A stretch of 64,000 bases of DNA from Hydractinia symbiolongicarpus (Eukaryota; Cnidaria; Hydrozoa; Anthoathecata; Hydractiniidae), in the NCBI RefSeq assembly GCF_029227915.1, contig NC_079876.1:13638001-13702000 (forward strand). The letters are read 5' to 3'. Position 1 is the first letter of the stretch. Each line of letters starts with the position of its first letter. The notes under the pieces were generated by a model, which did not search any database, was not told where the DNA came from, and saw nothing but the letters and a program-made list of their open reading frames with translations. Shown piece after piece: positions 3,380 to 63,509 of this stretch. Position numbers and translations under genes: made by a program.

Positions 3380-5129
3380 ATGTCAACTAGTGTTGAGTAT
3401 AGCTATCTGCAGCATTATACTGTGATACCTTCATTGCTGATAATCTTTGTACTTTATGCTTATGAACATTATAAAACTAGACAGGTTAAAGTTATTGCAC
3501 CATTTCTGTTTCCACTGGACAATGATAAGAATCGCTTCATGGTAATACTTGCTTTTGCATCAATGATTGGAGATATTGTGAATCTTTTAATGAACAGTTT
3601 CACTGTCCTTGTGTTTCTGCCTGGGGTTATTGGGCAGGCTTTTTGTGGTACTATTTATATTATAGAGATTGGACTTATAAACTTTCCGTTATTTGCTTGT
3701 ATTAATTCTTCATATGTTGTCATGGCGTATGTTTTTGGTGCATTGTTTACATTGTGGAAATTAATTTTTGTGTTGTTACAGTCTTGTTATTACTCCTGCT
3801 CCTTTAATGTTACGGAACTTGTTTTGGTAAATGTTATGGAAAACTTACCCAGCATTTTAAGCATGTTGGCTATTTTTGGAATATTTGTTAAAAATTGTTA
3901 CATGAATTTGAAGCAAGGAGTGTACTGCAGACCGTTACTGGAGCATAGACTAGTGAACGACTATCAAATTATTTACATGAATAAAGCGCTTAATGTCCTT
4001 TCAAGAGACGCTGTAGATTTTCATAGCAGCAACTTCCTCAACAGATTGTACAGCAGATACAGCAAGCCTTGGTTTAAGTTTTCTACTGTGTTTTTATTAT
4101 CTATTGTGGTTATCGTGATTGTGTATTATTATCTGGCTGTTTTATCCATATATGGTTTCAGTAAAGCAAATGGAATTCTTCGTACATCACTGGAGTCTAA
4201 TATCAATTCAACCCAAAACATATACCCAACACTTAAGAAAACAATGGAAGGTTTTTACATTTCATTTTATGTTTCCTTTGCTGTAACAGGAATAGTGTAT
4301 GGTCTGCTACTGTTTCACTTTATCTATTCACACCGTGTCAAATGTGTTAACTTTATATGCTGGCAAAAAAACTGATATTTCCAAACTTGTTAACTATCGA
4401 TTAATGGTTTATTACAACTTATTATTTCCTGGTTATTTGGTTGCATACATGACCTGGGGGATGATTGATTTTTTCATTGTATTTTTAATTTTGTTCTTCC
4501 TGATATATGGATTTATTGTTTTGGCAGTTGATTTTCCATCTGTTCAAGAAGTTGCGGAAAATCTTTTAAGGTACCTTGCATCATACTTGCTTATGCCTTT
4601 GATAACTTATCTCCTGCAATTACTGCTGGAATACAAATTTTTCACTGTGAAGCCCTTATCAACAATTGCGATCTATGTAAGAAATTTGAAAAATTATCAT
4701 ATTGCCATGTACTTTTTCTTTTTCTTCAATATCGTTATTGGTGCTGTATCATGCTTATCCAGATCTTTCAGCATTTTGTTTCTTGGACAAATTGACCATA
4801 CGGCAATGATTTCCAAGTTTTTCCAAAAATTTGATAGTGGTTTTTTAGCATACATTTGTTTCTTGCATGCTCAAGCTTCATATAAAAACCAAATTATGAG
4901 ATATTTTTGTCAAGTTTTATTGAATGCATCTTGCAAGAGCGATTCAACTATTTTAGAATACGGTTATTGTTTGTTCATTGATTCAAGATGTATTGTTCGC
5001 AGACAACACATTGTTAACTCAGTTGGTTTTAAGTGATGGTTTTTAGCATACACCTTGATAAACAATCCAAGTTTGGTTAAGGAAAGATTTAAGATAGTGA
5101 AACCAAGGTTACCAACGATAGTGTGTTGA
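3380..5129 (+). pseudogene. STRA6-like retinol uptake receptor, frameshifted and with a premature stop
   Basis: The product is a polytopic membrane protein. STRA6 family members import retinol from carrier proteins at the plasma membrane. The first frame (3380-4375) has several hydrophobic helices and the family-like DNDKNRF segment after the first helix. It ends out of frame just after an FIYSHR motif. The second frame (to 5036) continues the same family pattern: NVLTLYAGKK, later helices, FLGQIDHTAM, then HAQASYKNQIMRYF. In-frame beyond TGA 5034-5036 the family's C-terminal AYTLINNPSL segment continues to a stop at 5127-5129. A splice acceptor (TTTCTTTAG) lies at about 3342, upstream of the start. 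The coding part shown sits in one exon. One shift near 4336-4350 plus one nonsense codon suggests a decayed copy, or sequence error at the shift. Family assignment is by motif order and topology, without a search. Confidence 0.7.
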
Positions 5130-9700: not shown

Positions 9701-12700
9701 TTGGCAAAAAAAGTTCGGGCAAAATGAATTTTACCAATAGTAGTGCTCGTTACATAGTCCCCATATTAATATTTCCGTATTCTGTCTATCAGTCAAAGGG
9801 ATGTCATGCTAATATATTTTCCAACTTTTGGAATTGCTCAGGCGTAGTAAGCCAATCATGAGCCCTGATTGTTACAAATAACCAATCATTAATCATTATG
9901 GTGTTAAGCTTTAGAGGCCCCTTTTGTTGACCTTTTGCATGTCACAATAATTGCATAATCATACTTTTTAGCTATATTGATAATTATTAATTATTTTGGC
10001 CAACTGTTTAGCTAAAAGGTAAAATTGGTTAGGTTGGCTGCAACAAACATTTCAGATGGTTAATTAATGCTTTTGGATGTTTAATATACTTAGTTAGTTA
10101 TACTTTTAACATTGTGATAACGGTGGATGAAGGTCTAATTGATACAATAACAGGCATTACTTAGGTCGTAATGCACCAGCATGTGATACTTTTACTGCGA
10201 GTTATTTTTGGGGCTTTCACCACAACTTATTCCACATAATAAAAATGGTGGGTGATAATTTTAGCTAGATTGTTAACGACAGGGATTTTTATTTAAACCA
10301 ACACTCATACCTACACAATACCTATATGTACGGAATGTTTTACCTACACTTTAGCACTCAACATAAAGTTCACTGTGGGGTTACCCAGTTAGCTTACTTT
10401 AATTGATGAAGCTTTTATGTCAATTCAAATACACCTTTAAAGCTATTTGGTGAAAATAATTCTTATTTACATATTTCCAACACTATTTACTATCCTGAGA
10501 GTGTGGTACTGGTTCACAACTTGTCATTATCTATGTCCGAAATGGTCAATCACAACATTACATAATGTCTAACTACTGGTCACTTGGATTTGTTTCTTTT
10601 ATTCTCGATGGAGTCAATGGAAGAATTAGTTGAAAAGTTTGAGAAGTGGAAGAAAGGACTAGAAGAGAAAGGGCTAAAGGTAAACACAGCAAAGTCTAAA
10701 GTCATTATTAGTAGCATTGCAGCCAAATGTGACCTTGTAGTTGGAAAGTGGCCTTGTGGAGTTTGCAGGAAAGGGGTTGGTAGTAACTCAATTTTTTGTC
10801 AGACTTGCAAGCATTGGGTACATAAGAAGTGCAGTAGTATTAGTGGAAGGTTAAGACCTGACATTCAGTTTCTATGCAAGCGTTGCAAAGGTGAGATTAT
10901 AGAGAATGAAGTATTTCCAGCTTTAATGATGTACAACAGTGGCTCGTTAGAGATAGTTGAGAACTTCTGTTACTTAGGTGATATGTTGGGCAGTGAAGGT
11001 GATGTTGGAAGAAGTGTTACTTGCAGGATAGGCTCTGCTTGGAAAACGTTCAGAGAGTTACTTCCTTTGTTGACTAGCAGAGTCCTGTCAATTGAGGTAA
11101 AGAGTAGGTTGTATGAGGCCTGTGTAAGAAGTGTTATGTTGTACGGTAGTGAGACATGGGCAGTGAAGCAGGAAGATCTTGACCGTTTAGAAAGGAATGA
11201 TATGAGAATGGTTAGGTGGATGTATAACGCCAGTCTGAGAGACAGAAAGAGTTCAGATGAGCTAAGAAGCAGACTAAGTCTCCGTAGAATTAAAGATGTT
11301 ATCCAGATAAGAAGATTGAATTGGCTGGGACACTTGGAAAGAATGGAGGAGGATAATTGGGTAAGAAAGTGTAGAGACTTTATAGTTCCAGGGGCAAAGC
11401 CCAGAGGCAGACCTACAAAGATTTGGCAGGAGGTTATAAGGACAGACTTGATACAGAAGAAGTTGAGTTTAGATCTAACACAGTCTAGATCAAATTGGAA
11501 GAGGGTCATTAATATACCCCGTCCAACCCATGCTAGCATGGAAAACGGACGTTAAGCGAAGAATGATAATAAATGATGATTCTTCTTGAAGTACGTTTAA
11601 GATTGCGCTGAATTTTGGTTTTTAATCTGATGTGCTAAATCATCTGACCACCGCCTTGATATAATAATGTTAATTTACTTTGTAATTGTTAAAACGGGCA
11701 AAATAATTTGGAGAAAAAAAAGCATCATTTGTAACCAAGCTATAAAAAAACAAGACTTTTTTTACCTTGAGTTGATGTCCAAAGCTTAGAACAGGTTACA
11801 ATTATCGTATAGGAGTAAAATGAAATGACTTTAGAATCTTGCTTTAATCACTCTGATATATCAAAAAAGGTTTACATCAAATGTTGTCCATAGCCAAAAT
11901 GTTGTTCATAGCAAATATTGTTCATAACGAATGTTGTTCATAGCGAATGTTGTTCATAGCGAATGTTGTTCATAGCGAATGTTATTCAGAGCAAATGTTG
12001 TTCATAGCGAAAGTCAATCAGAGCGAATGTTATTGAGAGCGAATGTTGTTCATAACTAATGTTGTTCATAGTGAATGTTGTTTATAGCAAGTGTTGTTTA
12101 TAGCGAATGTTGTTCATAGCAAGTTTTGCTCATAGCGACTGTTGTTTATAACCAATGTTGTTTAGAGCGTATGTTGTTCAGAGCGAATAATGTTCAGAGC
12201 CAATGTTGTTCAGAGCCAATGTTGTTTAGAACGAATTTTGTTCATAGCAAATGTTGTTCATAGCTAATATTGGTCATAGCGAATGTTGTTCATAGCGAAT
12301 GCTGTTTAGAGCGAATGTTGTTTAGAGTATATTTTGTTCAGAGTAAATGGTGTTCAGAGTATATGTTGTTCAGAGTAAATTTTGTTCAGATGTTACTGTT
12401 TATGTTACAGTTGAAAACAAATGTTCTCTTTTTTATTTACAAGCTTAACAAAGCGAGGTTAGATAACCTTATAATTTGCATCTTGGAAAGCGTAAAAGGG
12501 TTCGCAGAAACAATTTTAACCACTCTTTGCTATGTGACATGCTTTTTTCCGCATGAGGAGGAAAAGCTACTCCCGTTGGTAAAACGCCTGGTGCAACACG
12601 GTCTGTCATGCAATCCATAAAAGTAAGTGTGGTATGTAGTTGTTTCATGTACTGCAGGTCGTTACTGGTATTTATACCTGTCCTAATTTTGGAGTCCATG

Positions 12701-15700
12701 AGACCACTATTTTTACGTGCATTAAACCGACTTATTGTCATACTTAAAAGTTTTGGTAATTCTAGATGTCTCAATATCTATATCTCAATATATTTATTGT
12801 TCGACACTCCAGGTATTATTAAAAATAGTTTTTTTTAGCCTTTATATGCAACGTTTTCAATGGAAGAACTGATTTCACCGCAGAATATTGTTTATATCAA
12901 TGTTATTTTTGTTATGTAGGTATATCATATCCGGAAGTACAAGACAGTATGACCGGAATCAAGTTGGCATTCACCGGTATGTTAGCTTTTGTATAACAAA
13001 ACACTTTCAGATAAGTTTTACAAATTTGATTATACGTACAGTGAAAAAAGCTTTTTGCTTGCTTTTTCATGGAGGTAAATATGTAAGGATTTAAATTTGC
13101 ATAGACAATTTTAGGCTTACCTTCTCCACAAGTAATAATTGACCGATACTATTGTTACCCGCGGGAAAGGCTGGCCTGAAATTTTATATCTTAGCATAGT
13201 CATAAGAAAACGAGTCTGGTGAATCGCGTGGCTCTATTGTTTATGTTTTTGTTAGCAGAATATACCTAGTACCCAGCGCTTTGACTGCACGCCGGTTAGT
13301 TACTGTAAACATAGGATTAACAAACATTTAAACAGAATTATCTTTAACATGACTGGCACAAATTGCTCTATATACGGTTGCACAGTTTCACAAAGAGCTA
13401 AAGATATAGGTCTATCTATTTTTAAAGTTCCTGTTGGTGAGAATCAATTTGACAAGTCGTGGAGAGAAAAGTTAGTTGCTGTTGTGATAAAAGATAGGGA
13501 AGTTGATCATGCTCTAAGGGATAGAATTCAAAGAAAGAAAATATATATTTGTGAAAAGCAACTCAGCGAAAATCAAATGAATCGTAATCACTCTAGCAGA
13601 ACCACACTTGTTCCCAGTACTATCCCTACAATAAGCCTTCCTATCAAAAGTTTTCATTCATCCTCCACATCTTTTAAGCCTCGTCAATCAGCGCAATCTA
13701 TTTTGCAGAAAAAAATTGAACCAGTGGAAAATGTCATTACTGATCGGTACAAGTCATTTACAGATTTTATTTCTAAAACTCAGTTGTTGAAATTAGTCGG
13801 TTGGAGTTTTGCCTCTACAAGTGATTGTGCTTCTCTTACCTGTCATGATGCTATCTACTCAGTTCCAAATTATGAGATATATGCTGATAATAATCTTGTT
13901 TTTACTGTTCGTGTTTTATTATGGTCTGTTCCTGCTAAACACGACATTTATTCTCCTTCACTAAAACTTATTACAATCACATATTTAACAAGATTAATTA
14001 TGGATTTGAAAGTATTCCCAGGTTTGACAGACCACTTTGCTGGTAGCTGTCTTGAGCACTGTGTTCCAAAAGTATTTAACATCACTGATAGCACTAGTGC
14101 ACCTCTTCATTAAAGCAAATGGTATCGATCTCCAAATTGCATAGTTCTTATTCCACTTTTTTCTGAAAAATGCGTGGAATGAGTTAGGACGGAGTCAAAA
14201 AAAGCCTAAGTTTGAAAAGGAAAAAGGGACAATTTAATTTCACCTGCCAAACTTAAAGCACCAATTTCCATGAAAGCCCTTTAATTTCCATAAAAGCCCT
14301 TCAAAGTCATTGGTTGGAAAATAAAGAATTAAAGGAAGAGTTAAAGAAAATGCAAGATGAAATTTCCACTTGTGTAGTTCCAGTCCAAAAAAGTCTTGGT
14401 GATGATTTCAAAAAAATTATGTCCAGAACTAATCGCAAGATATCACCATTCATGAAATGTTTTTGGGAAGAGCAGCAGAAAAATTTATCATAATTGAAAA
14501 CTGATGTTCGCTATCATCCTATGATCATTCGTTACTGCTTGGGTTTAGCTGCGAAATCCGCTGCCTTTTATGATTATATTTGTGCTGACGATAGAAGAGA
14601 GAGGGGTTTCTTGGTTCTCCATAGTAGACGTTTAAGGGACTATAACAACTATATTTGTCCAAAACAAGGCTTTAACAAAGACGTTATCCAAAAATTGTGT
14701 GATATGGTCTTCAAATTACAAACACATAAGAAATATGCAATATTGTTAATGGATGGAATGAAAATTCAAGAAAGTCTTGTGTGGGATAAGCATAATGGTG
14801 ATCTTATCGGTTTTGTTGACCTTCGTGATATTGATCTAAATTATGCTGCATTGAAAAAGGTTGATGAAATTGCATCTCATGTCTTAGTTAATCTTGTGAG
14901 AAGCATTTTAAATCCTTTAAAATTTTCGTTTGCAAATTTTGCTACTACCGATGTCACATCAATCGTTTCCTTTCTTTTGGAAAGCATACTGGATGAAAAA
15001 TGTGGCATAAAGTTGTTGGTGTCACAAGTGATGGAGCTTCTCCAAACCGACGAATGCACCATATGCACCTAAAGCATGACCCGTGTAGCTGACATTAATG
15101 CCGAAGTGGACGTAACATACCGCACTTTGAATGTGATGGCGGATGAGGAACAGTACATCTACTTCATCTCGATCCACCACGCTTAATTAAAACAGCCCGC
15201 AATTCTCTTGCAGGAAGATGTACCAAAAGTATGTGAAATGATGGAAGTTATATCACCTGGAACCATATATCAAAGTTTTTCCTTGATGACTTAGACTGTG
15301 GATTACATCCTGTTCCCAAAATAACAAATGACCACATCAAACTCACACCATATTCCGTCATGAATGTACGTCTGACAGCACAAGTGTTAAGCGAATCCTC
15401 AACTGTATAGACCACCAGAAGCTAATGCAACTGCCATATATTGTAATATGTAAGACCAATTTTCGACTTTCTCAACGTCAAGAATACCAAAGAAGCAGCA
15501 ATTAAACGTAGACCATTTATTAAACCGTACACATCTGTTGATGATAAAAGATTCTTATGGTTGATCGAAACATTTCTTGGAAATTTAAAACATGAAAGGA
15601 TTCAATTGCTGATAAGCGTGGTAAGTTCACAGATAATGCTAGAGCAAATATGTTTATCTCATGGAAAACCTACCAAGGAATCAAAATCACTGTCCATTCT

Positions 15701-23025: not shown

Positions 23026-23516
23026 TTAATAACTTACTTCGCATTCTTTTATTTTTCGTCTTATTATTTCCCAGTTTTGTTCATTCCATCTTGCAGCACA
23101 ATCATAAGCTGTGTCTCCATATTTATCTTTGATCGTCACATCAATATTTTCATGACGCAACAAAACATCAACACATGAGATGTGACCACGCATTGCAGCA
23201 TAATGTAATGGTGTGCGGTGGAAAACATTTCCACGGTTGATGTTTGCTACATCATGTCGACATAAAATATCTAATATTGTGTGACGACCATATACTGCAG
23301 CCAAATGATAACTGTTTTGTTTCAATCTATCTTCCGCCCAAACATCACTCCTATATGAGATGAGTATTTCCACCATTGATGTATTGTTGGTGCAACGTAC
23401 TGTCCACATCAATGGTGTGTGTTCATTTCCACCTCTCATGTGAACGATGTTTGGATGAATGGATAGTATTTTTTTCAGTTTCTCGATATCGTTAAATTTA
23501 ATAATAACTACGATAT
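23026..23516 (-). CDS. Exon 7: ankyrin repeats
   Basis: About five repeats: NDIEKLKKILSIHPNIV, then EHTPLMWTVR, NSYHLAAVYGRHTILDILC, RTPLHYAAMRGHISCVDVLL and GDTAYDCAARW. The open frame continues upstream of the first internal ATG to an acceptor TTTTAG at 23517-23522 in phase 1, which fits the donor of the FN3 exon (GAAG, GTAAGT at 27019). It ends with a stop at 23026. An internal start would lose the first repeat, so this is an exon rather than a separate gene. Confidence 0.8.
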
Positions 23517-26500
23517 CTAAAATTAAAATAATAAATGAATAAAAAATATAAATTTATAAATTAATGAAATACACTAACGAAAAATTTATGACATCGATTT
23601 TAAGATGTTTCTTCTTATCGTAATAGATTTAAAATTTTTTAAACATAAAAATAGTGAAAAGAGAATGGTAATATATTAAACATTTGCAAATAATTATAAA
23701 AACACAAAAATAAATATAAGAACTAACGAATTTCGAGTTTATTATTTTGACGTCATCATTGCAGATTATTTTGCGCAAGTGGAAATTCTTGAATAAAAAA
23801 TATATTGAGATAATTTGTTCGCAGCGACAAAAAAATTATCGAAGAAAATAAACGATTATACAAATTAATACAAACATTGATAAACAGATGAAAATAAAAT
23901 TGTAATAACACTAATTTAATGACGTCATCATGTATGAATTCACAAATGGAGACAAATTAGAAACACAAAATTAATTGTCTTAATCATGATGACATCAGCA
24001 TTTTTGTTTACCTAATACATTTTTTATCACAAAACGGTTTCATAAAAAGAACAAGTTTAGTGACAGAAGATAATTTAAATCTTCGGTACAAAATTTTATG
24101 TCGAAAAAATAATTTACTGCATAATAACAAAAAATACGAGCGATATTTTTTCTCACACCGTTGAAAGTAATTTAGCTACCATTCAAAAAAATTCAAAAAT
24201 TTGTACGATAGAAATCATAAAATTTTTTTTAGGTTTCCTAAAATAGTATTGTGTCGTTAAATTAATTTTTCTACACAAACCATTTTTAAGTTAAAACTTT
24301 CGAGAGTTTTTTAACGATTAGCGAGAAACCTTTCTCACCTTATTCACGTCCTGTTGTTATCAGAACTCGTTGTTGAATGAAACATATTCGTTTTGGTTGA
24401 GTATGATATAGTGATATAAATAGAACGACTGTACTCAATATATTTGATTTCGTCTCCACGAATATTTCAAAGATGTTTCTCTGACACGCGATCGGTTATT
24501 TGAAAACTTGGGGTATCCCAACCTCGTCCTCAAGACCCCTTCCTCTTTGCGCCGTTCCCAATATAAGAAAGCAAATAGGGGTCCTGAGAATGAGTTTGGG
24601 GTAGTGTTTAGGGTAGTGTTTCTGGTGGTAGTTTCATTCTACAGAGCAGATCATTATATGCTCTCCTTTACCACTGATAAGTTTGGCAGATGGAAACCGT
24701 CCCATAAGATTAGCACTGAAATGTTTCTATTAGCGATAATTTTCAAGTGTAAGTAAAGAACGGAACTATCTGCAACAATGTTGACAATAACTTTTCATGA
24801 AATCCCGTTGTACGCAAAACGCGCCAATAATTGCTTAAGAAAAGTTAAACGAAAGTTACAATATGAAATAAAACCATGGCAACTATCAAAAAATGCAAAA
24901 AAAGTGACACACAATTTAGGGAAAAACTTATATACGCTGTTTCTGTGTACTCTTATCAGTAATATTTCCATATCACATTTTTACTTTCTTAAATACTTGA
25001 CGTTCTATCCACAAGCTCAAATTGGTTCTTTTCAAATCGAAGGAAAAATGTCAACTTGTTTTGGGGGATTGTCCTGATCTGCACATGCTCGTTGAAAAAA
25101 TAATAGTATTTTCTCCGTCGCAAATGGTCCCGTTCTTGTTTCGTAAGGTTGCTAATAACTTGAAAAGAAGGCTCTTACAGCAATCTTTAGGTTATGATGT
25201 TCTCGTGTCAATGACCAAATAACATGGGATCGAGGCCAGCCATTACGGTTAAATATAAATAACTTGGAAAGGAGACTTTTCCCAGGTCCTAATGACAAAT
25301 TTTCTCCGTAAGAAATTCTCTTTGCAATATTGAAATAGTATGGAAACGAGGCTATAGCTTCATAAGAATTTCACTACTTCACAACCCGTATACTCAAACT
25401 TTTATGGCTATGGATAATGGCTTGTATTATACTAGGCCGTCCAACTATAAAAAGCCTAACAGTTCCTGAGGACAAGTTTGGTAACTATCCTATAGGAGCC
25501 GAACTGTTTAACATTGCCCATCTTTTTTCAATAGTGATCAATTTGACACGGTGGCCAATTTTGCGAAGGCATAAGATCTGCTTTATCCTGCAACATATAA
25601 ATATTGCAGAGCTACGCGTTGTAAACTAAATGTACAGGTAAAACTTTTGTTTAACAACTTTACACCCAATTCAAAGAGTATTACAGTAAAATTGAATCTA
25701 CAATGTATATTTACAAAATATACGCTTCGATTATACAATTTAACTACCGCAGCCGCTATCCCAATTACTACCCCAATAATTTTAATTAATACCACGCAAA
25801 AAAATAATTTTCATTCCTACCTCTTTGAAAATGCAATTAGAAAAATTATTAATTTTTTTTATGCTAGATCAAATCATTTTTTTACTGTTTTTTAATTTGC
25901 CACACTGTATGTGAAAGAGAAAAAGGAGCCTATCAACCAAACAGGATTAAAAAAATACCTTGACTATTTTTCGTTTGCTTTTGTTAAAGTATAGGGAGGC
26001 AACTTTATAGTAGAGATCAGCAATAGTAATTGATTCAGAAGTAACGTTTTAGTTCAATTTTCTAAAGTTTGATTAAACTAATATAATTGTTGAGAAAATG
26101 GAAAGTTCTTATTCACCAAAAAAATGACCTTGAGAACAAAATATGGATCTCTAGTGCATCTTTGATTTCGTAATGCTGGGTTTTTTTAATTTTATATTTT
26201 CAAAGCATTTCAAAGAAAAGAGATTTGATTAAATTAAAAAAAAAGATTTTTCAATACAATTACAGTTTGATAACATGTAAATCTTATTTTGCTTCTGTTT
26301 ACCAGGAGAAAGCTGCACTGGATATACAAAATATCCTATCAACTCAACAGGAAAAATAATAGTAGCAAAGCTAACATTTCATGATTTTTTGATCACCATA
26401 AAGGAATTTCATATTTTACTTTGGACACTAAGAACGTTTTCCGGTGATTAATAAAAATTAAAATGTTTCACAAGCACTATGACTACAATGTAGGTCAAAA

Positions 26501-29500
26501 ATATATCATTTCAGTTTCGTGATTATTTTTTAAAATCAATAAACAGGATTGGTTAAGAATATGCGAGAGTTATACTGTTGCTGTTACGAAAAGGTTTAAG
26601 ACATGTTACTTACTCAATCTATCATGCTAACGTACAGAACAAATGCCCTAAAATTTGTTCAAAGAAGTCATGCTGATGTTATCAAAAACTAACTTTTATC
26701 TTTGCTGGATATCGAAAGATAAGGCCGAAAGTCTGAAACAATCACTGCTGTCATCAATCAAAAGATGGACAACCTCAATCAGCCTTAACTTTTTTTAATA
26801 AATATAATAACTATTAACATTTATAGCTTTGGTACGCAAATATTCAAATCACGTCATATAACGTATTATTTTGGTTTCAATGATTGGTTCAACTTAGCAT
26901 CATCAAAACCTTTTTAATATTAGCATACAGAGAACAGTCAAACTAATGTAAGATTAATTTTTTTTTTTGAAATTTACCAAATTTTATCTGTAGCCCTGTT
27001 TCCAAGCAGTTGAACTTACCTTCAAAAGTGACAGACATATCTGCACAACTTGATGGAGGATTACTTCTAGAAATAAAAAATGAAGTACCTAATGAAACAA
27101 AAATAACCATACCTTTAGAAAACCAATAGTAAAAACCACAAAAAAACTTACACATGTCGATACGATACAACACTTTGAGCTTGACCAGAGTCGTTACTAG
27201 CCAAAACACGAAACTTGTATTTATTTCCAATAACTAAATTGTTGATAACACATCCACCAAACGTGATGACATGCTCTACGTTCTGCCATTGTGATCTGTC
27301 GTTTTCCATTTCAATTACGTAACGATATCCTTCCTCATTCCAATTAATTGTACAGGAACTGTCGTTTGAAAAATTGCAGCTCACGTTGATTGTTGGAGGC
27401 TGGAAACTAGAAATTAGATGCAGGCATAAAAGTGTACTACAAACAAGTTTAGAAGACATTTTGCAGTTCTGATTAAAAATTATACCTGCTGGTAATTTGC
27501 TTATACTACAAATAAATAAAAAGATATATTTACTTTTTACGTATAACTCGCGCGAAATCATGCACATCTGATTCATCCTTTTCATATTTAATTTGATTTA
27601 TCCGTTCCATCAGATTTTTGTATCTGCGCGAATTTGTATTCACAAAACCTATCGATTTTTTGTCACTGACTTGCATTTCAATGTAATGTAAGTCTTTATT
27701 TGAATTTTTTGCGCATTCAACAGAAACCTCATTTAGGTACTCCGGTAACAGATCTTTAATGATATGTCCAGTTGATGAATTTGTAGTAGCAGACTGTATG
27801 TTACACGCGCAAACAATTATCAGGCGATCAGTTACTCTGGACATGCCTTCTAACGTCTTGTGTCGCAACATAGTGTCATTTACGTCAATAGCACATACGG
27901 TTTCACAAAAGTCTGTTCCTCTACTACCGTGTACGTCGGTTATTATATTATAACCCACGTCTGCAGGAAGATCACACACTTTATTGCAGCGGTCGATGAC
28001 ACTCCATTCAGTTTGTTTGTTATAAACAAAATAATCCCTTCTGATTAAATCCAGAACCCTTCGAAACGTGATCATTTGTTCCACAGTGTTATGAAAAAAT
28101 AAACGTTTAATATTAACACGATCTAGATAGTATTCCAACGAGAGAGCTAACATGACAATACTTTGCTCTTCTGTTTCATTTTCATAATTAAGATGTATCA
28201 GTATTGGCTTTGTACCTTCAATGTTATGTCCAACTTCTTGCGCAGAGTTGCATTTCACTTTGGTTAGTGTTTTGATATCTTCAGAAACATCTGGATAATT
28301 TGAGGCAGCTGCAATTTCCTCTATATCCACTGGTTCTTCAAAAATCTTTTTACTTTCTTCGGCTGATTCTACTTGTGAATTCTTTATTTCTAAGACTTTA
28401 CGCTGCTTTGAATTTTGTTGAATGGTAGAGCTGGTCGTTCCAGATTTTGCTGATGATATTTCATGATTTTTGTCCTGAACAGGATGTTTGATAACTGATT
28501 CAATCCCGGAAATTTTCTTCTCAAGTTGTACCAAGAAGTTAAAATTTTTCTTCGTTGTTCGCATTGATTTATTGAGGTAAAACACACGCATACCAGCTTC
28601 TTCGTACTTGTATTTATCATGGCTTTTTGATTCTCCAGATGAAACCAATATCCTGTGCTTTTCCAAAGATTGCAGAAACAACACAATCATGGAATTCTTT
28701 AAAGCCTCTTCCCTCTCCAAAATCTGCTTCAGCGATAAAGCTTCTTGATTGTCAAACATCGCTCCATCAACTTCGTCACTAATAAAATGAAATGACATAC
28801 CACTGTGTTTCTTTAACAACAACAGTAATAATTGGGATAAGGTTGGAAGTTTAAAGAGATTGAGCTCTTTTGCTAATTCAATTGCATTCTTTACTTTCAA
28901 AGTGATATTTTTGTTGCATTGAAATTTTGAGACGAATTTTTCAATACCTTTCAGCAGTATCGTTTTGTCACTCCACATGACATAGTATATTGTGCATTTT
29001 CCTTCACAACATTCGTAAAGTTGTTTTAGATGAGATAAAGCAAGAACCGATTTACCACTTCCTAATGGTCCAACAATAATTTTCTTTTTAGATTGGTTAA
29101 ACAAAATATTTGACTGATCAGATGACAATAGAACAGTGCATATTTTCCCATGGATATCATCTTTAATTGTTGGAACAGTGTTCATAGTTTCCCTACTTGC
29201 CATGAAACACATTGCTTGACCCAATATGTTCATGTACTGCTCTTTGCTTTTGTGATCAAGATCTTTTCTTGTTAATCCCAGAGATAGAAGGAAATTTTGA
29301 ACCTTCGTGTCATCCGAGAAAATAGGCTCATCTAACAATTGACAGCTTGCACAAACGTCGATGTTCTCTAACGTTTGGAAATTTGGTGCAGCAACAACAT
29401 TTATAAATCTGGAGGTACTATTCAAGATAAATTGTTGATTGATTGCAAACAAATGTTTGATATCTACCTCACCATTTCGAAATTCTTCCTCAATGGTTGA

Positions 29501-32191
29501 CGCACTAGTAGTTTTAGTGTATCTTATGTTGACGAAGGTATTTTGAGATGGATGGAGCAGCAGAAGTCTGTGTTTATAATCTGTAACACGATCACAATAA
29601 GTATTTAAATTTAGAAGTCTTAGATTGTCCATGGTATTGTAATGTGTGAAAATCACAAACACGTGCCCAATTTCGCTGAGAATTGACTTTAGTCGAAATG
29701 CAAAGCTGGAAATCTCTTCATTAACCATTGGTGGTGGAAATTGGACAGCTTCTTTTAGAAAGGCATTGTTGGATGTGCAGTTTTCATTAACATAATCTCT
29801 TGAAAATCTTAAGTATTCGCTTCTACTTTTTTTTTGTACTTCTCCACAACAGAACAGCTGAATGTTAGGTTTATTAAGAGGGGTGCTGGTAATTGACTCG
29901 ATATGTGCTGCAATTTTTTCACTATTATGTGTATCGAGAGAAAAGTTACTTTCTTTGTTGTAATACTTGTGAGCGCAGGCGATGTTGACATCTACAAATA
30001 GTAATGACAGTGACGAATAAAATTTTTAAGACAATTTTTTTTAGAAAAAATTAAAAACTTAATTAGTTACTACTTACTGTGTACTTCAAAAATCTCTTTA
30101 TTTCCATCAATGTCCAGCAACGATATGACAAGTTTTAGGATGTACCGGGTAGCTGTCTTATATATTGTTAACACAAGCTTATTGTCTCTCATTTCTTCAT
30201 AAAAGTCCGATGATTCTTTCAGTTTTACCTTGGTATCACTACCGTCCTGTTGTATAGTAATTTTCTGAACGGTTTTTAAGTTTTTATTATGAAACTTAAC
30301 AATGATATTTTCTTCTTTGTCTTTATACATCCAAAAACTAAAATTAAAAATATAGTTAGAAGCTAATTTTTGAAAATATTTGTCAAGGAACTTTATATTT
30401 CTGTACCTCTGTAATAATAGCCGTCATCTGTCTGTCTCTGCGAGACATACGAAATGCAGTATATATAAAGGACGGAAACCCCGTGGATTTTTCCACGGGC
30501 AACGACTAGTCTATATTATAATACCCCTATCCGTCTGTCTGTCACACAAAATGGTACCGCAAGTATTGACACGCACGCAATTAGGTATTTAAAATACCAA
30601 ACCCGTGGATTTTTCCACGGACCACCGACTAGTACTTTATGGTATTAATTAGAAGTCTATGTTGCTGTTATAATAACGGTAAAACAACGAGAAGTTTAAA
30701 GTAGATGCAAATTAAAGAGTTGTTTATGATTAGTTTCAATTAACTAATATCTTTTTTTACTGACTTTATAAGCGTAGAATAAAGTAAACCTTGTAAAATC
30801 ATTATTATTACAATTTTATAGGAAGTGTTTTAGCATATAAAATATCTTTTACTGAATCATCAACAAATCCGCTGAATTAAAATTTCATCGACATAAACAA
30901 TCGGCGACAAGGTGCGAATGTATAATCTGCTTTACATGATGTCGCCTAATGTCTTTTTATCCCGATTTATAAGGCAGTATAATGTCAGTTTTCTAAAATT
31001 ATTTTTCTTGCTATTATTATGTTTTTTAAGAAGATCTTATACCATTCAAAATTTCTTTTACTGATGTATTATGTAGTGAGTTTGTATACTAAATACTTGT
31101 AACAAAAACTTTTAACAAGAATACACTTAGTAACTAAATTTCAAAAATACGAAAGAAAGACGCTATTGTTAAATTTATATACTTTTAGGAAATTTTTCCT
31201 GGATTAATAAATAGAGATAAAAGACAAAAACATAAAAAAACATGACAAACACAATATTTTTTTTATTGTAGAAAAATTTGTGACACTTACTTTAACATGG
31301 GCTCAGTCTTTACTGGAGCTATCAAAAATAAGAAAATAAATAAAAGCAAAAAAGTTAAAACAACCCTAGAAATCTAAACTAAATCATTAAATGCACTGTT
31401 ACTCAATAGAAACGCAAAGATCTAGAATTTTAACAAATTCAGTGTAACAAAATAGACTGAATTTACATGCGTTAGCTGAGGGCTCATTAAAAATATCCAC
31501 AATTTGTAGTTGTTATGGGTTGGCCAGCTACAGATTTATTTGAACCCTGCTTCAAAAATAAACTTTTTCTAAAATAAACAAGCATTGGTCTAATGTAGTA
31601 GTTTCTTTTTGCCTTAATCTTACAAAGACGGGGGAAAGGTAATCAAAAAATTTTTCAAAGTTTTGCCAACTAAAAGTTTCGACGACCTTTAGTATTTCAA
31701 ACCATACACAAGATGACACAACGATAAAACAGTTTTGCAGTTTTTAAATCTACAACTGAAATGCACATACCTTCTCCTAATAGCTGTTGTGAGATGTCTT
31801 TTAATAGATTTTGAAAAGTTGTTTCATCACCTCTGTATAATTGGTAGTACATGTTATTGCCCAGGATCAAACTGAGCACATGGTCTGCTGGAGGTTTATA
31901 ATCTTTCTCAACTATTACACAGATAATTTTCTTGTGTTGTGCACAGGCTAAATTGTATTCTTTCTGACAGTTTTTAGATTCTTCATATCCCTTTGAAAGT
32001 AGAAGAATGATCAACTTTGATCTTGCAACGCCTTCGGCCATCCGTTCACCTATATCTCCATACACTTGATCCTCATCTGTCCAAACAGAGTAATCCTGTT
32101 TTAATAATGACTCTTTAATCCTTTTCATGTACTCCATGCCAGACGCATGATGGTAGGATATCATAATATCCCAATTTGCTTTGGTGGCCAT
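23026..32191 (-). CDS. TIR - SF1 helicase-like NTPase - FN3 - ankyrin multidomain protein (predicted innate immune receptor)
   Basis: Seven exons on the minus strand: 32191-31771, 31318-31291, 30337-30078, 29991-27534, 27406-27152, 27066-27020, 23516-23026. All six introns are GT-AG and every junction phase closes, giving 3960 coding bases (1319 residues). Order: TIR (1-140), beta-rich linker (141-237), unassigned alpha/beta region (238-525), UvrD-like SF1 NTPase (about 525-970), FN3 (about 1057-1150), ankyrin repeats (about 1157-1319). TIR domains signal or cleave NAD; SF1 motors move on nucleic acid; ankyrins recognise proteins. A cytoplasmic sensor with a TIR output is the likely role, inferred from architecture only. 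No signal peptide or membrane span is seen in this model. The start is the only in-frame ATG before TIR strand A, 22 bases after an acceptor-like TTCTTAG (32213-32214). Further exons inside the 3.5-kb last intron cannot be excluded. Confidence 0.65.
24480..25410 (+). repeat. Interspersed repeat copy 2
   Basis: Lies in the 3.5-kb last intron of the TIR gene. Blocks at 24622-24715 (AGAGCAGATCATTATATGCT, AAGTTTGGCAGATGGAAACCG in part) and 25240-25400 (TAACTTGGAAAGGAGACTTT, AATTTTCTCCGTAAG, CGAGGCTATAGCT) match the 20.4-21.3 kb copy in the same order and orientation. No coding capacity. Confidence 0.7.
25411..27010. other. AT-rich part of TIR-gene intron 6
   Basis: No exon could be supported. 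A + strand stretch at 26304-26450 after a TTTACCAG acceptor-like site is open for 48 codons but matches nothing known. A minus-strand hydrophobic frame lies at 25583-25795. Confidence 0.4.
27020..27406 (-). CDS. Exons 5-6: fibronectin type III domain
   Basis: 27406-27152 and 27066-27020. The FN3 pattern is clear: PPTINVSC, CTINW (strand B Trp), YRYVIEMEN (strand C), NNLVIGNKYKFRVLASNDSGQA (strands E-F with the usual Y-x-F-R-V and Asn-x-Gly turn; split here by description). Four cysteines are present. FN3 followed by ankyrins is the arrangement of the FANK1 family. An ATG at 27459 with a hydrophobic run would give a separate secreted FN3 start, but the phase fit to exon 4 through a 127-nt GT-AG intron favours fusion. 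Confidence 0.75.
27407..27533 (-). promoter_or_regulatory. Short intron with in-phase stop: possible switch between two isoforms
   Basis: Donor AAAAA-GTAAAT at 27533 and acceptor TTTCTAG at 27407 (minus strand). If retained, translation stops at TAA 27532-27530, inside the donor. The protein then ends 'VIRKK' after 1056 residues, without FN3 and ankyrins. A second acceptor-like site (TTTATTTATTTGTAG, ends at 27506) lies 24 bases past that stop. Confidence 0.55.
27534..29991 (-). CDS. Exon 4: UvrD-like SF1 NTPase/helicase region
   Basis: An 818-codon exon. SF1 motifs in order, numbered in the full protein: Q-like SSDQSNILF (about 526-534), Walker A GPLGSGKS (about 544-551), Walker B FISDEVD (about 639-645), motif IV-like YLNKSMRTTKKNF (about 708-720), FFHNTVEQM (about 868-876), motif V ITDVHGSRGTDF (about 920-931), motif VI MSRVTDRLIIVC (about 953-964). 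A low-complexity linker rich in Ser, Glu and Lys lies between IV and the second RecA lobe. Motif II is DEVD rather than DExQ, and the Walker A threonine is serine, so helicase activity is uncertain while nucleotide binding is likely. The first 290 residues match nothing I recognise. The frame can also end at TAA 27532-27530 if the next intron is retained. Confidence 0.8.
30078..30337 (-). CDS. Exon 3: beta-rich linker domain
   Basis: Encodes about 86 residues with alternating hydrophobic strands (ENIIVKFHN, VQKITIQQDG, KLVLTIYKTATRYILKLVIS) resembling an Ig-like or other beta sandwich. It follows a 28-nt microexon (31318-31291, residues APVKTEPML) that joins it in phase to the TIR exon. Flanks are TTTTAG before and GTAAGT after. 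The domain family is not recognised. Confidence 0.7.
30470..30640 (+). repeat. Pair of CCGTGGATTTTTCCACGG hairpin repeats
   Basis: CCCGTGGATTTTTCCACGGG at about 30479-30498 is a near-perfect palindrome with an ATTTTT loop, followed by ACTAGT. A second copy (CCCGTGGATTTTTCCACGGA) follows at about 30602, also with GACTAGT after it. Related copies lie near 3.03 kb and 53.02 kb. They sit in intron 2 of the TIR gene. Confidence 0.75.
31771..32191 (-). CDS. Exon 1: TIR domain with putative catalytic glutamate
   Basis: The exon encodes a full TIR fold: strand A WDIMISY, then KQDYSVWTD (strand B and following loop), the RMAEGVARSKLIILLLS segment, and KKIICVIVE. The pattern SKGYEESKNCQKE places a glutamate at residue 78 where NAD-cleaving TIRs (SARM1, plant TIRs) have their catalytic Glu. 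The S..Y..S..C..E spacing resembles the enzymatic class. The exon ends at donor GTATGTG (31770-31769) in phase 1. Confidence 0.9.
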
Positions 32192-45269: not shown

Positions 45270-48200
45270 ATGGAGAGAATGGTTAATAAATCATGTATCT
45301 AAAGCTATTAAGAACAAAACAAGTAAAGCTTTCAGAACCTCAAGAGATAAGGTTCTGGATTTGTAGAAAAAGGGCACAAAAAACAACAAAATTGAGGATT
45401 GAATCAATAAAGAACGCTATAATGATGTTGTTCAAGAATTAAAAGAACGACCACAAATCAACTTAACGGAAACCCATCCAAGAGTAAACCGATATGAGGT
45501 TACTGGCAATTTGAATAATGACCTATCAAAGAGGATTTTCAACCGAATCAAACAAGATATTGAAATGCGTTCAAGGATTGTTTACAGTTTTACCGCTAAA
45601 ATTTATCGGGGAAATGGGGAAATTGTAAAGTATGAAAAAACACTTCCGGGAGAGGGGACTTTTACAAGTTTTTCTACAATCGAGGGGTATATCAAACGCT
45701 GTGAGACTAAAAGGTTAGATTTGGCTAATGATGGAGTATGGAGTAGAGCTTACCTACCCCCAACGCACGTTGTTAGCACACCAGGTGTCTATCAAGGTCG
45801 AGTCGAGTTTACTAGAATTATCATAAGAGTCATACACAGCAATGAACCGCTCATGGGTTGTGGTCCTCTGCCTGATTGGCTTCGTCGTAAAAAATGTATT
45901 CGTGCTATCGATTATAAAAACGACAATCTGTGTGTTTGGAGGTGTCTTGCCATCTACTTTGCCTATTGTGATAATGTGCCAAGACCTGCTAAACGCACTA
46001 CTAGAAAAGCGTTAGAACTAGCCCGAGATTTTTATGATTATCGAAACCTGAAATTCGAAAATGTACGGGCGACTAAACTTGCTGATTTTGAAGGAATTGC
46101 TAAACAGTTTCGTATCAACATCCGTCTGTATGAGCCGAAAAACCAACAGGTTTGGAAATTTGTGTTTGGTAAAAACCAGTTCAGAAAAATTTTACCTTGT
46201 GTTGACATTGGTCTCTACGAGGGTCATTGTTTTTACATAAAAGATCTTGAAAGTTTGACACAACACTGGGAATGCGCTGGATGCGAACAGAGGTTTAACA
46301 AACACAACAATTATAATAGACATGTAACAGAAAACCTTTGTTCGGGAGGAAAAACCAAGTTGATATGCAAAGGAGAAAAGTTTAAGCATATCATGAACAG
46401 TTCTGAGAAGGTATTCTATGGAGGTAACACCCAGATCAGTTATGCTGGATATCGATGGGTTGGGAAACAGTTTGAAGATACAGGGAAACACATTCACCAT
46501 GCTCTTTGTGTTCATGGTGGAGAAAGATGTGTGAAGATTAATGGGCAAGAGATTCTTGTTGATGGTTATGAACCTGAAAGTAAAACAGTGTACCAATTTC
46601 ATGGTTGTAAATGGCATGGATGTCCTTGTTCAGATGGAGATCGCAAGAGATACAAGGAGACTCTAGAGCTAGAGGAAAAGATTAAAGATTTGGGTTACAG
46701 TGTTATTTCCGTTTGGGAGTGTCAAAGACCACAATTGAGTAGTGTAAAACTTGAAAAGAAGTTTATTCCATACCCATACTTTATAGTGTTTGATTTTGAA
46801 GCGTTGCTCCATAACCTATCTTGCAAGATGACTAACGACCTATGTTTTAACACTAAACATATCGCAGTCAGCGTTGCTATTACTGATAACTTTATAAACA
46901 AACCCACTTTTCTTGTAAATCCAGACCCAGAAGCTCTTATCAAAGACTTTATAAAAGATTTACTAGAAAGGTGGAAAGTTATTACAAAAGAGGTCAATGC
47001 AGAATATCTTTTGCCTGATGTTGGTTCTATACCTGAAAACGTAAAATTTCAACATGCTAAATGGTGTAACCAAATACCGGTTTTAGGGTTTAATAGTGGT
47101 AAGTATGACATCAACATGATCAAGAAATATTTTTGTAAAACACATGACCCAGCAAGCTGGAGAAATTTTAGTTGCGAAAAAACAAAACAGTTACATGTTT
47201 CTTACAACCCCTCACTTCAAATTTTTGGATGTTAAGTCTTACCTAGCTCCAGGTCTCTCTTTTGCTGGGCGGTGCAAAGCAAACAATTACCAAGATCAAA
47301 AACTTGTCTTTCCCTATGAATGGTTAGATAGCTATGAAAAGCTTTCTCACATCGGTCCTGTAGAATACAAAGACTTTTACTCGAGTCTACGGAAGAAGAT
47401 CACAGTGTCTCCTCAAGAATATAAAGACTTTAAGACTGAATTTAAAAATCGGGGTTGTGTTACAATGCTAGATTGGTTAAAAGAATATAACTTGGCTGAT
47501 GTTGTTCCTTTTGTAGAAGCTTTGGAGAAGACTAGAAAACAATACTATCCTGATCAAATTGATATGTTAAAAGATGCTGTATCAATTCCGGGTATCTCAA
47601 TGACGTATGTGCTCAACAAAGCCCTAAAAATAAAGAAGAAAGACGTGCCTGATTTATACGCTCCAGGACAATCTTGCTTTTACAAATGCGCTAAGACTTG
47701 TAGTAAAAAGGCTTGTAAAGAGTGCTCCAAACTAAGAAAAGAATGTACCGCATGTCCCAAAAACAAGGCCTATGAACTCTTGAAAACGGGTATGGTTGGA
47801 GGTCCTATCATTGTGTTTTGTCGATATGCCGAAAGGAATGTTTCAAAGATAAGACCTTACAAATACGAAAATGCTAAAACATGCCAGTCTGTTATAGGCT
47901 TTGATGCCAACAGCTGGTATCTGTTTGCTCTGGTCAAGAGATGCCTTGTGGAAAAGAGCAATATGTTGAAGTCAATGACCCTACCAACCCAGAGTTTATC
48001 GATAAATATGTAAGAGTGTTTTGTCCGACCAGCTCTTTGACTTTTTGTCAAGTTGATATACACGTTCCTGAACATCTGAAAGAAAGGTTTAGCGAAATTT
48101 CACCCTTGTTTGTTGTTGATAGCATTCCATAAGATTTAGTTCCTATACACATGAAAGCTTATCAAAAGGCCACTGGTAGAAAATCTTTGAAAGGTACCAA

Positions 48201-49153
48201 AAAATTACTGGGAGTTTGCAAGGCTGAAAAGATTTTGTTATACACACCCATGTTAAGGTGGTATCTAAACCATGGTTTAGAGATAACCGCTGCACACAAG
48301 CTTTTAAAATATGTATCAGGAAGACCTTTCAAATGGTTTCCACACGAAGTCAGTAACGCTCGAAGAGATGGAGATTCTAACCCCGCCTTGAAGCAACAAG
48401 GAGATACTTACAAACTAAAAGGAAATTCGTTCTACGGAAAGATGATTGAAGATCTTGGTAAACATACCAAGGCTAGCTATACACAATCCGAAGATACTGT
48501 TGATAAGGCTTTTAGAAGTCCTTTCTTTGACGATTTAGAAGTCCTCAATGAAACATATAAATTAAAAAAAGGAAAACGTCAGGTAAACATAAATCGACCT
48601 TATCAGTGTGGTATAGCTGTATATCAACTGGCTAAACTTCGAATGCTGGAGTTTTACTACGATTTTCTTGATAAATATATAGATAGGCGGGATTTCGAAC
48701 TAATTCAAATGGATACGGATTCTATGTACATGGCTCTTTCAAATGAAAACTTGGACGATATTGTTAAACCTGAACTACAAGATGAATACTTTAATAGAGG
48801 GAAAGCAGAATTCCTGTCAACCTCGAAATATCATGACCGAACTCCAGGGCTCTTCAAAGATGAACTTAAGGGAAGCGAATGATTGCTCTTACATCAAAAT
48901 GTTATTACGGTGAAAACCAAGATCTGGGCAAGGCAAAATTTAGTTGTAAGAGTACTTCAAAGAAACAAAATGACATGTCATGGGATAGATATAAAAATGC
49001 TTTAGACGGTCATAAAGATATGGCTCAAAATACAGGGTTTAGACTTAACAATACCAGATAGTAACATATACCCAAAAGAAACCGGGTCTGAGTGCTTATT
49101 ACGACAAACGGATAGAGGCAGCTGACGGAATTCACACAACCCCTATGTATTAG
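45270..49153 (+). pseudogene. Polinton protein-primed DNA polymerase B, broken
   Basis: Family B polymerases of this type replicate linear DNA from a protein primer. Order seen: a Cys/His segment (DNLCVWRCLA ... GHCFYIKD), a C2H2-like finger (CAGCEQRF ... H, about 46270), a nuclease-like segment (VDGYEPESKTVYQFHGC, about 46560), exonuclease motif FIVFDFEAL (about 46780), palm motif A GFDANSWYL (about 47900), motif B KLKGNSFYG (about 48420) and motif C QMDTDSMYM (about 48705). Breaks: stops at 45364 and 45400, frameshifts near 45222, 47190, 47950, 48880 and 49060, and an in-frame TAA at 48130. The C-terminal piece ends at TAG 49151-49153. The longest intact frame is 45511-47235. The gene cannot make a full enzyme as read. 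Confidence 0.85.
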
Positions 49154-60343: not shown

Positions 60344-61555
60344 TTATCTAAACAAATACCATATGAAATAACCTGTTGTCATAGCAATCACAAGAGCGAT
60401 CTTCTCATCTTCATGTGTAGGAGTATCTTTGTGGTAAGGTGCAGTAATGTGTTTATCAGTAGTAATGTGTTTATCCGTAGTACTAGTAGTAATAGTACTA
60501 TGGATAGGAATAGGACCGAATGTCCTATCAGGAATCTTTTCATATGATTCAGCTGTTTTTTCAATAACATTAACCTTTCGATTAATCCCAATCGTCAGAT
60601 CTTCACCCGATATTAAAATCTTGTTGTTGTAACCTACTACCCCTGTTTTAATTTTGAGATTCATGTCACTAGGTAACATATAAATACCTTGTCCAACCGA
60701 ATAATCAACCTTACTTGAAGCGTAGTTTAACGTATCCTGATAACGTTTAATGTCCTCTTGAATATCAACTCTACGGTTAACAATGTCCTCAAGGTTGTTC
60801 ATAAAAACTCTTTGAGCCGTCAAAGCGTTTGAATCATTACCCAAGATAGAAGAACGGGCCGAGGCTTGCGAACTAAGAACAAGATAAGCATACGCCCTAA
60901 CACTGCTTGAAATCTTTACAAGGCCTGTTTTTGTAAAGCCATTAGATTTTTCCACAATCCATCGTGTCATGGAGTCATTCGTGAAATAACTCAAGCCCGG
61001 AGTTGGATAGTTTTTACGTCTTTTTTGATATGAGCTGAAAAAGTGTTGACCTCTGTATTTCATAGGATTAGAATCAACGTCATATTCACCACATATTTTT
61101 AGAAATTCTTCGTTTGAATAAGGATTGTCATATTGATGAAAACTATCTTCAAAAGGTAGAGGTGTCTGCAAGCGCTTAATGATTCGTCTAATGTGATAAT
61201 AGACATGAAAACAATATACCGATCTGATCATAGATCTACCCTCTTTCAGGTGTTCGGAACTGACTCCACAAGCACTTGAACCACACCAAGTGGCAAAATT
61301 GAGTTGGGTTTGCCATAATTTAAACGGTTGTTCATTTCAAATTTTCATACGTTGTTCGTTTTGATTTAGTTCGTAATTGGTAAAAATATTAAGAAAGACA
61401 GCAGGAAAAGAGCCATTTTCAGAGACAATAATGGTCTGTTTGTATAGATCCTTCCCATCCAATATCTGAAGGTCCCGTCCTCCATTTGGTTTATAGGTCG
61501 CATTGGGATTGTATTTGAAAATGCTATCCATTCTTTTTGATTTAAATAATTCCAC
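60344..61555 (-). pseudogene. Polinton accessory protein with C-terminal membrane anchor, one internal stop
   Basis: Minus strand. The frame starts at 61555 (MELFKSKRM), stops at TGA 61339-61337, and continues in the same frame to 60344. As read, the possible products are 72 and 295 residues. The second part carries a Cys/His-rich HVYYHIRRII region, a long helical middle (NNLEDIVNRRVDIQEDIKRY) and a C-terminal hydrophobic span IALVIAMTTGYFIWYLF. It is divergent from the capsid genes, sharing a short spacer (61556-61569) with them. Position beside capsid genes suggests a virion or membrane role; the family is not one I can name. The single nonsense codon is the only visible damage. Confidence 0.55.
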
Positions 61556-61569
61556 TCTCTAATATAAGA

Positions 61570-62130
61570 ATGTATATCACAATAAATGACGTAAATAGTG
61601 AAAAGACAATCTATTTGTATCACCCAATCACCAACCCACATGGCACAAAAGAAGTTGCGATCATAGAGACGTTTTCGGACAATGTTACATATGAAATCAC
61701 AGCTCCACTAAAAGTGACCATTCGAAAAGACGAAAAGTTGCTACCGAAAGGAAAATACACCGGCAGGGAGTTGAACGCATCTTTAGCGGGTGATGTCACA
61801 TCCACACCATTAATCAAAGACCCTCGAGTAATCAAAACAAATAAGCTAACCAACATAACAGAACTACATTTCAATCTGAATGAATTGGATAATACATTAA
61901 ATCTTAAAAATGGTAGATATAGCGATAACCTGCTAACATATCATATATCTGAGTATGGTGATGTTACACATATTGAGCCAAAAAACCCACAATATAAGAA
62001 ACTAAAGGGTGGTTACCTTCAATCACTTACTTTGAAAATAAATGATCAAAATGGAGATCTGGTAAAAGATAGTCTGGGAACAACAGTTGTCCTTCACATA
62101 AGAGAGATGGCAGACAATAGGTTTGAATAA
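61570..62130 (+). CDS. Putative Polinton minor capsid (penton-like) protein
   Basis: A 186-residue intact frame, almost all beta strand by pattern (KTIYLYHPIT, NVTYEITAPLKVTIRK, LTLKINDQNGD, TTVVLHIREM), with no membrane span. A short beta protein directly upstream of the major capsid candidate (53-base gap) fits the single-jelly-roll vertex protein of Polintons. Assignment rests on position and strand pattern, not on a recognised motif. The start is 14 bases from the divergent gene's start, so the two likely share a compact promoter. Confidence 0.45.
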   Translation: MYITINDVNSEKTIYLYHPITNPHGTKEVAIIETFSDNVTYEITAPLKVTIRKDEKLLPKGKYTGRELNASLAGDVTSTPLIKDPRVIKTNKLTNITELHFNLNELDNTLNLKNGRYSDNLLTYHISEYGDVTHIEPKNPQYKKLKGGYLQSLTLKINDQNGDLVKDSLGTTVVLHIREMADNRFE

Positions 62131-62183
62131 AGTATACGCTAACTGAGATAAAAGTAAAAATAAAATAATAATAATAACAAAAC

Positions 62184-63503: not shown

Positions 63504-63509
63504 GATAGA

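Follow-up and report, generated by a model that had tools for sequence, protein, structure and literature searches.

Cnidarian NOD-like receptors (NLRs) built on a NACHT domain use TIR and DZIP3-type HEPN domains as effectors (PMC8260672), and DZIP3-type HEPN domains, whose catalytic motif is mostly kept, are expanded in some animals (PMC3710099). In animal TRADD-N proteins, recognition of invaders has been proposed for the variable repeats that follow constant modules (PMC8195603), while fungal NLRs display positive selection on the concave face of their ankyrin repeats, together with concerted evolution (PMC4986451). Here we describe a gene of the hydroid Hydractinia symbiolongicarpus that lies on the minus strand of a 64,000-nucleotide stretch (C2:13638001-13702000, hereafter the window). 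From the N- to the C-terminus, its product comprises a TIR domain, a linker, a P-loop motor with superfamily 1 (SF1)-like motifs, an FN3 domain and ankyrin repeats. We believe that the gene probably belongs to a large family of NLR-like recognition receptors that are cytoplasmic and germline-encoded. More tentatively, with the odds slightly against us, we propose that the family may be a further class of animal intracellular immune receptor, in which an SF1-type motor would replace the NACHT/NB-ARC switch, TIR and HEPN effectors would be interchangeable, and an ankyrin exon, exchanged among dozens of loci with its framework almost unchanged, would act as a germline counterpart of a designed ankyrin repeat protein (DARPin) library, with one paratope per gene.

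The gene extends from position 32191 to 23026 of the window (Table 1). Its seven exons have GT-AG borders and join into 3,960 coding bases for 1,319 residues, the sole stop codon being terminal. We searched the genome (480.9 Mb in 76 contigs) with PF13676 and obtained 30 matches, eight of which are the first exon of near copies of the window gene, arranged in tandem at C2:12.69-13.93 Mb. The same seven exons are open in all eight copies, with GT-AG borders kept and length differences in multiples of three; the structure is therefore not a product of chance. Both the exon model of the first-pass annotation, an earlier reading of the sequence, and the domain order that it placed in one protein are thus borne out, the latter by Pfam matches of single exons and by exon joining. 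The match of exon 5 to fn3, at 24.9 bits, falls just below the curated cut-off of 25. For the same exon, an acceptor at cag/CCTCC breaks the frame, and the adjacent tag/TTTCCAG (27406) is needed instead. No transmembrane-like stretch occurs in the protein, the top 19-residue hydropathy being 1.34. The best PDB relatives of the TIR exon are SARM1 TIR chains (E 0.0065). Residue E78, invariant in all eight copies, is a candidate catalytic glutamate, equated with that of SARM1 by eye; the two residues are not paired in the HMMER alignment.

The 74 matches of a genome search with exon 4 merge into 55 motor loci, on eight contigs or more. This count is a lower bound, since scoring covered 55 of 121 candidates. 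Fourteen loci are 78-100% identical to the window exon and 41 are 32-45% identical, and three of the 55 have one stop codon within the matched stretch. An ankyrin-exon match follows within 20 kb downstream on the same strand at 52 of the 55 loci (65 of 156 ankyrin matches were compared with the motor loci, and the three misses hold for that list). Within 15 kb upstream of the motor, a TIR domain occurs at eight loci, HEPN_DZIP3 at 36 and neither at 11. TIR, the domain named in the first-pass annotation, is therefore the minority effector. The one HEPN exon that we read matches HEPN_DZIP3 at 3e-19 and continues into coiled-coil-like repeats. The exon 3 linker was recognised by eye in other members read; by tblastn, it is found upstream of the L030-L035 motors at 48-52% identity and, weakly, upstream of L039 at 25%. 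The plan of the family is effector, linker, motor, FN3 and ankyrin, with the effector swapped.

Six of the 11 loci with neither effector form a group at 78-82% identity, and for none of these six does the 15 kb upstream contain a TIR or HEPN match. The 5.5 kb upstream of L030 (together with L158), read by open reading frame (ORF) only, contains no evident TIR or HEPN. Death domains were considered as an alternative effector and set aside, as none of 20 genome matches lies within 15 kb of a motor locus when the lists are compared side by side. Three further observations concern relatives of the family. L030-L035, which make up the 78-82% group, are the closest relatives of the TIR group and carry linker, motor, FN3 and ankyrin. 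At C14:6195007-6196845, a motor match (45%) sits within a 2,300-codon open frame, with no TIR, HEPN or ankyrin match in the lists compared. Contig C1, at about 4.9-32 Mb, holds several dozen more ankyrin exons, roughly 35-48% identical to exon 7 and most without a listed motor exon; these may belong to a separate family of ankyrin receptors.

Across the eight tandem copies, the ratio of non-synonymous to synonymous substitution (dN/dS) is 0.29 for the TIR domain, 0.43 for the linker and 0.33 for FN3. Exon 4 gives 0.40 and 0.38 in two blocks and 0.26 in its tail, and the ratio exceeds one in exon 6 and in the ankyrin exon (2.63). The motor is under purifying selection and the ankyrin exon under diversifying selection. 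With our own GY94 script, the ankyrin exon has an omega of 2.87 (p 6e-6 against 1), with the motor as a control at 0.40, and 19-20% of its codons fall in a class with omega 24-28. Model M2a improves on M1a by a 2dlnL of 143 with the tree of the ankyrin exon and of 171 with that of the core. In a tree-free comparison of the 28 pairs, exon 7 has diverged further than the end of the preceding intron in every pair (barely so for L009/L010, 0.008 against 0.007). It has diverged further than the 300 bases that follow it in 15 pairs, and each of the remaining 13 includes L009 or L010, whose 3' flank is itself divergent. In the pairs L011/L012 and L013/L014, exon 4 differs by 0.04-0.08% and exon 7 by 8.4-9.5%; in L009/L010, the figures are 0.45% and 0.8%.

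To describe the repertoire we aligned 28 ankyrin exons, namely those of the eight tandem copies and 20 of the 36 others at 70% identity or more, 16 of them from genes with distant motors and four from the 78-82% group. Each of the 28 has an open frame throughout the stretch compared. A column was called hypervariable if it held five or more residues, over four repeats and 132 columns. Hypervariable columns make up 18 of the 24 at repeat positions 2, 3, 5, 13, 14 and 33, which we take to be the positions randomised in DARPins, against 4 of 108 elsewhere (Fisher 1.2e-13). Since there is hardly any variation at position 33 but some at position 10, a set described after seeing the data, positions 2, 3, 5, 10, 13 and 14, fits better and contains 21 of the 22 hypervariable columns. 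The mapping to the concave face rests on repeat position; single-sequence structure prediction of the exon was unusable, with a predicted local distance difference test score (pLDDT) of 32. Diversity at the hypervariable codons is 0.52, 0.50 and 0.22 at codon positions 1, 2 and 3; at fourfold sites where the framework residue is invariant, it is 0.022. All 28 signatures are distinct, differing on average at 18.1 of 23 columns; L009 and L010 differ by one residue. Tyrosine (14%) and arginine (13.5%) are the commonest residues at these columns.

The history of the ankyrin exon is separate from that of the motor. Over the 48 pairs formed by eight TIR genes and the six HEPN genes with sequence for both exons, the motors are 37% identical with a fourfold difference of 0.587, that is, silently saturated, while the ankyrin exons are 80% identical with a fourfold difference of 0.032. 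The ankyrin exon must therefore have been exchanged or homogenised between genes long after their motors split. Of the 41 loci with distant motors, 28 carry ankyrin exons 75-82% identical to that of the window.

Intracellular recognition receptors divide their labour between a conserved effector and motor and a diversified repeat surface, as is seen here, and on this we base our reading of the family. Ligand binding, motor activity, effector chemistry and an immune role are what we infer from sequence. In the working that we propose, the C-terminal ankyrin domain would be the ligand-binding paratope, on its concave face, with contact residues diversified from gene to gene and a framework kept uniform by exchange between copies. 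FN3 and an SF1-like motor or switch powered by ATP would pass on the binding event, and this relay would cluster or release the N-terminal effector. That effector would here be a TIR domain, probably acting as an NAD+ hydrolase or in a signalling assembly, and in most relatives a HEPN domain, probably an RNase. The outcome would be defence or a self/non-self response, perhaps cell death. An immune-sensor-like class had been suggested for this gene at the outset, and the family of at least 55 loci, the effector swapping and the diversifying selection all speak for it. The accompanying idea that the motor senses nucleic acid has fared less well: it stays one option, because selection points to the ankyrin surface, rather than the motor, as the recogniser.

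Several points weigh against this reading. The codon models ignore recombination, of which our data give clear signs. A threshold of 70% identity or more was used to choose the 28 ankyrin exons, and their diversity is that between paralogues, not alleles. Eleven of the 55 loci have neither TIR nor HEPN upstream. Among the loci with distant motors, ten have ankyrins only 34-57% identical to those of the window and three have none in the list compared. Lastly, the profile support for SF1 is not significant, and the best Pfam matches of the motor are generic P-loop families, with some to ATPase_2, NPHP3_N and nSTAND.

This last point bears on the identity of the motor. The first-pass annotation had named a UvrD-like SF1 motor, and the Walker A, Walker B, motif V and motif VI strings on which it relied are present, with key residues invariant in 16 of 16 aligned paralogues (Table 1); the alignment keeps GxRG at motif V and MxRxT at motif VI. 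Read by eye, the order of motifs I, II, V and VI is that of SF1, and the motif VI-like string aligns, in weak alignments, on motif VI of UvrD (within a mixed SF1A set), HelD and RecD. By itself, exon 4 yields nothing significant in Pfam, NCBIfam, PADLOC or PDB, and the best PDB match of its profile is at 0.81, not significant and not to a helicase. A Pfam scan of the 16 members gives ResIII in 13 (best 2.8e-5), AAA_22 in 12, AAA_14 in nine (1.5e-4), NPHP3_N in six (0.0066), ATPase_2 in three (3.7e-5) and nSTAND_NTPase5 in two (0.076), and the only SF1 family is Viral_helicase1, in one member at 0.01. By these matches the motor appears to lean to other P-loop classes as much as to SF1. It might then be a STAND-, AAA- or SF2-like P-loop nucleoside triphosphatase (NTPase) serving as a nucleotide switch, and the protein a divergent NLR rather than the bearer of a new motor class.

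Profile comparison speaks to both sides of that question. With an hhalign motor profile of 28 paralogues (11 after hhalign's own filter), the N-lobe scores a probability of 48 to UvrD/Rep, 64 to the mixed SF1A set, 31 to HelD and 63 to RecD/Dda, against 0.7 to RecQ/RhlB of SF2 and 5 to MalT. The C-lobe stays below 1 for every reference, with MalT (0.41) about as high as SF1A (0.46). Neither NACHT nor NB-ARC matches any of the 16 members in Pfam at E up to 1; only the NPHP3_N and nSTAND_NTPase5 matches lean in their direction. Given the N-lobe scores, the motif order with its invariant residues and the missing NACHT/NB-ARC match, we hold a non-SF1 switch to be unlikely, albeit a contender of some substance. 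The motor is SF1-like, and its membership of SF1 is likely but unproven, on motifs only. Two other routes to its placement were set aside. Single E. coli and T4 proteins gave RecD (13), Dda (10) and HelD (5.5) as the top references, with UvrD and Rep below MalT, and, as a guide to two RecA-like lobes, single-sequence structure prediction of exon 4 was unusable (pLDDT 33). With two peptide patterns only, no relatives of exon 4 were found in bacterial and archaeal genomes.

A receptor for allorecognition, or for other self-marking in a colonial animal, rather than for pathogen defence, should show this architecture and selection too. Colonial hydroids practise fusion and rejection, diversifying selection falls on one recognition surface joined to a conserved signalling core, and in fungi, incompatibility involves NLRs whose repeats diversify (PMC4986451). 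In Hydractinia, however, the genes known for allorecognition are the Alr genes of the immunoglobulin superfamily (PMC11067881), and the present family is spread over at least eight contigs rather than one locus and has no transmembrane-like stretch in the protein studied. We treat allorecognition as a serious alternative outcome, at a rather low probability.

A targeted mutator, somatic or like a diversity-generating retroelement, could also vary the ankyrin codons in place of ordinary mutation, exchange and selection. Many variable codons hold one third base while their first two vary, and the pairs L011/L012 and L013/L014 have diverged in exon 7 with hardly any change in exon 4. Third-base changes nevertheless occur where they alter the residue (for example Q/H, R/S and N/K), residue use is biased to tyrosine and arginine, as expected from selection, and the close pair L009/L010 is little changed in exon 7. 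A mutator is, on this evidence, which includes no search aimed at one or at its template, very unlikely, and we retain mutation, exchange and selection as the source of the repertoire.

The least credible alternative is that of two neighbouring genes, one for a TIR-motor protein that terminates at the stop following exon 4, the other for FN3 and ankyrins: the exon 4 frame does run to a TAA overlapping its own donor, and the window does have an in-frame ATG with a hydrophobic start before FN3, but such an ATG was found at only eight of 30 loci, six of them in the window's own group of eight, and an independent FN3 start was rejected for want of one at the other 22. At each of the 30 motor loci examined, exon 4 closes with a GT donor in phase 2 and is followed by an FN3 exon. 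At least one in-frame donor/acceptor pair joins the two at 29 of the 30 (L039 fails), in a permissive test that accepted any AG near the FN3 start as acceptor. In L009 and L010 the intron between exons 4 and 5 has diverged and the ATG is lost, yet donor and acceptor both remain. A single gene, as first annotated, is backed by this comparison of loci, not by transcripts.

Elsewhere in the window, a long ORF run on the plus strand (45403-48882 and 61546-63998) looks Polinton- or adintovirus-like by eye, with DNA polymerase B-like, capsid-like and packaging ATPase ORFs; only 63504-63998 exceeds a Pfam cut-off (Pox_A32, 2.5e-6), the other ORFs being without a match. Positions 4296-5036 of the plus strand match RBP_receptor (retinol-binding-protein receptor, STRA6-like) at 1.4e-17. 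Further plus-strand matches at 10566-15072, to a PHD finger (1.4e-7), a THAP-like domain (0.00039, under the cut-off) and a TNP-like RNase H (9.9e-16), are by appearance transposon pieces.

Table 1. Exons and motor motifs of the window gene, with positions in the window
Feature	Position	Strand	Support
Exon 1: TIR domain, residues 1-140	31771..32191	-	TIR_2 2.6e-18 (Pfam, single exon)
Exon 2: 28-base microexon	31291..31318	-	Length and GT-AG kept in 8/8 copies
Exon 3: beta-rich linker domain	30078..30337	-	Common to TIR-type and HEPN-type members
Exon 4: unassigned region, then SF1-like P-loop motor	27534..29991	-	At least 55 loci genome-wide; 16-member alignment
Walker A (motif I) GPLGSGKS	29048..29071	-	G, P, GSG and K invariant in 16 aligned paralogues
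Walker B (motif II) acidic pair DE	28772..28777	-	Invariant 16/16
Motif V-like GSRGTDFCE	27902..27928	-	G, R, G and final E invariant 16/16; aligned on RecD motif V in the C-lobe comparison
Motif VI-like MSRVTDRLI	27818..27844	-	M, R, T and L invariant 16/16
Exon 5: FN3 domain	27152..27406	-	fn3 2.4e-5 (Pfam, single exon); FN3 exon after motor exon at 30/30 loci
Exon 6: 47-base linker exon	27020..27066	-	Length kept in 8/8; dN/dS 1.39 (16 codons)
Exon 7: ankyrin repeats, hypervariable positions mapped to concave surface, stop codon	23026..23516	-	Ank_2 5.8e-20; dN/dS 2.63

Some of the domain pairings in this protein have precedents. TRANK1 combines ankyrins with a UvrD-like domain and FANK1 combines FN3 with ankyrins. 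The pairwise combinations are alike, and neither protein is known to join an effector to all of them. A full-text search, covering part of the literature and few subscription papers, gave no description of the whole architecture or of hypervariable ankyrins in cnidarian immunity in the parts of the sources available; in the main text of the main Hydractinia genome paper, 'ankyrin', 'TIR' and 'NLR' are absent as word starts. If our reading is right, an early-branching animal would possess an anticipatory, ankyrin-based recognition repertoire independent of immunoglobulins and leucine-rich repeats, and driven by a motor other than the usual STAND switch. Since Hydractinia is kept in the laboratory and genetic tools exist for it, ligands and the outcome of binding would be directly testable.

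The family has the N-terminal effector of an NLR (TIR at eight and HEPN at 36 of 55 loci) and its C-terminal repeats (52 of 55). Judged by sequence it would work like an NLR; lacking a recognisable NACHT or NB-ARC domain, it is not classed as one. It resembles the cnidarian NACHT NLRs in its N-terminal TIR or HEPN effector, central NTPase and large lineage-specific expansion (PMC8260672). Unlike them, it has a motor that is not NACHT or NB-ARC by profile, a C-terminal FN3 domain and hypervariable ankyrin exon, and a wholly different fixed order of domains. With fungal NLRs bearing ankyrin, WD or TPR repeats it shares the effector-NTPase-repeat plan, ankyrin selection at the concave face and concerted evolution. 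The fungal proteins, though, have NACHT or NB-ARC domains and exchange single, near-identical repeats (PMC4986451), whereas Hydractinia exchanges a whole ankyrin exon among dozens of genes, and its internal repeats differ from each other. The ankyrin exon itself also has an artificial parallel. Among the top PDB matches of exon 7, many are DARPins. The repeat positions varied in DARPin libraries are nearly those that vary here. These libraries likewise set variable residues in a constant framework (PMC8683736, PMC4132713). DARPins are designed and selected in vitro, whereas the Hydractinia ankyrins are germline-encoded, with position 10 varied and position 33 constant. As 28 natural paratopes on one framework, they would offer a ready comparison for designed ankyrin libraries.

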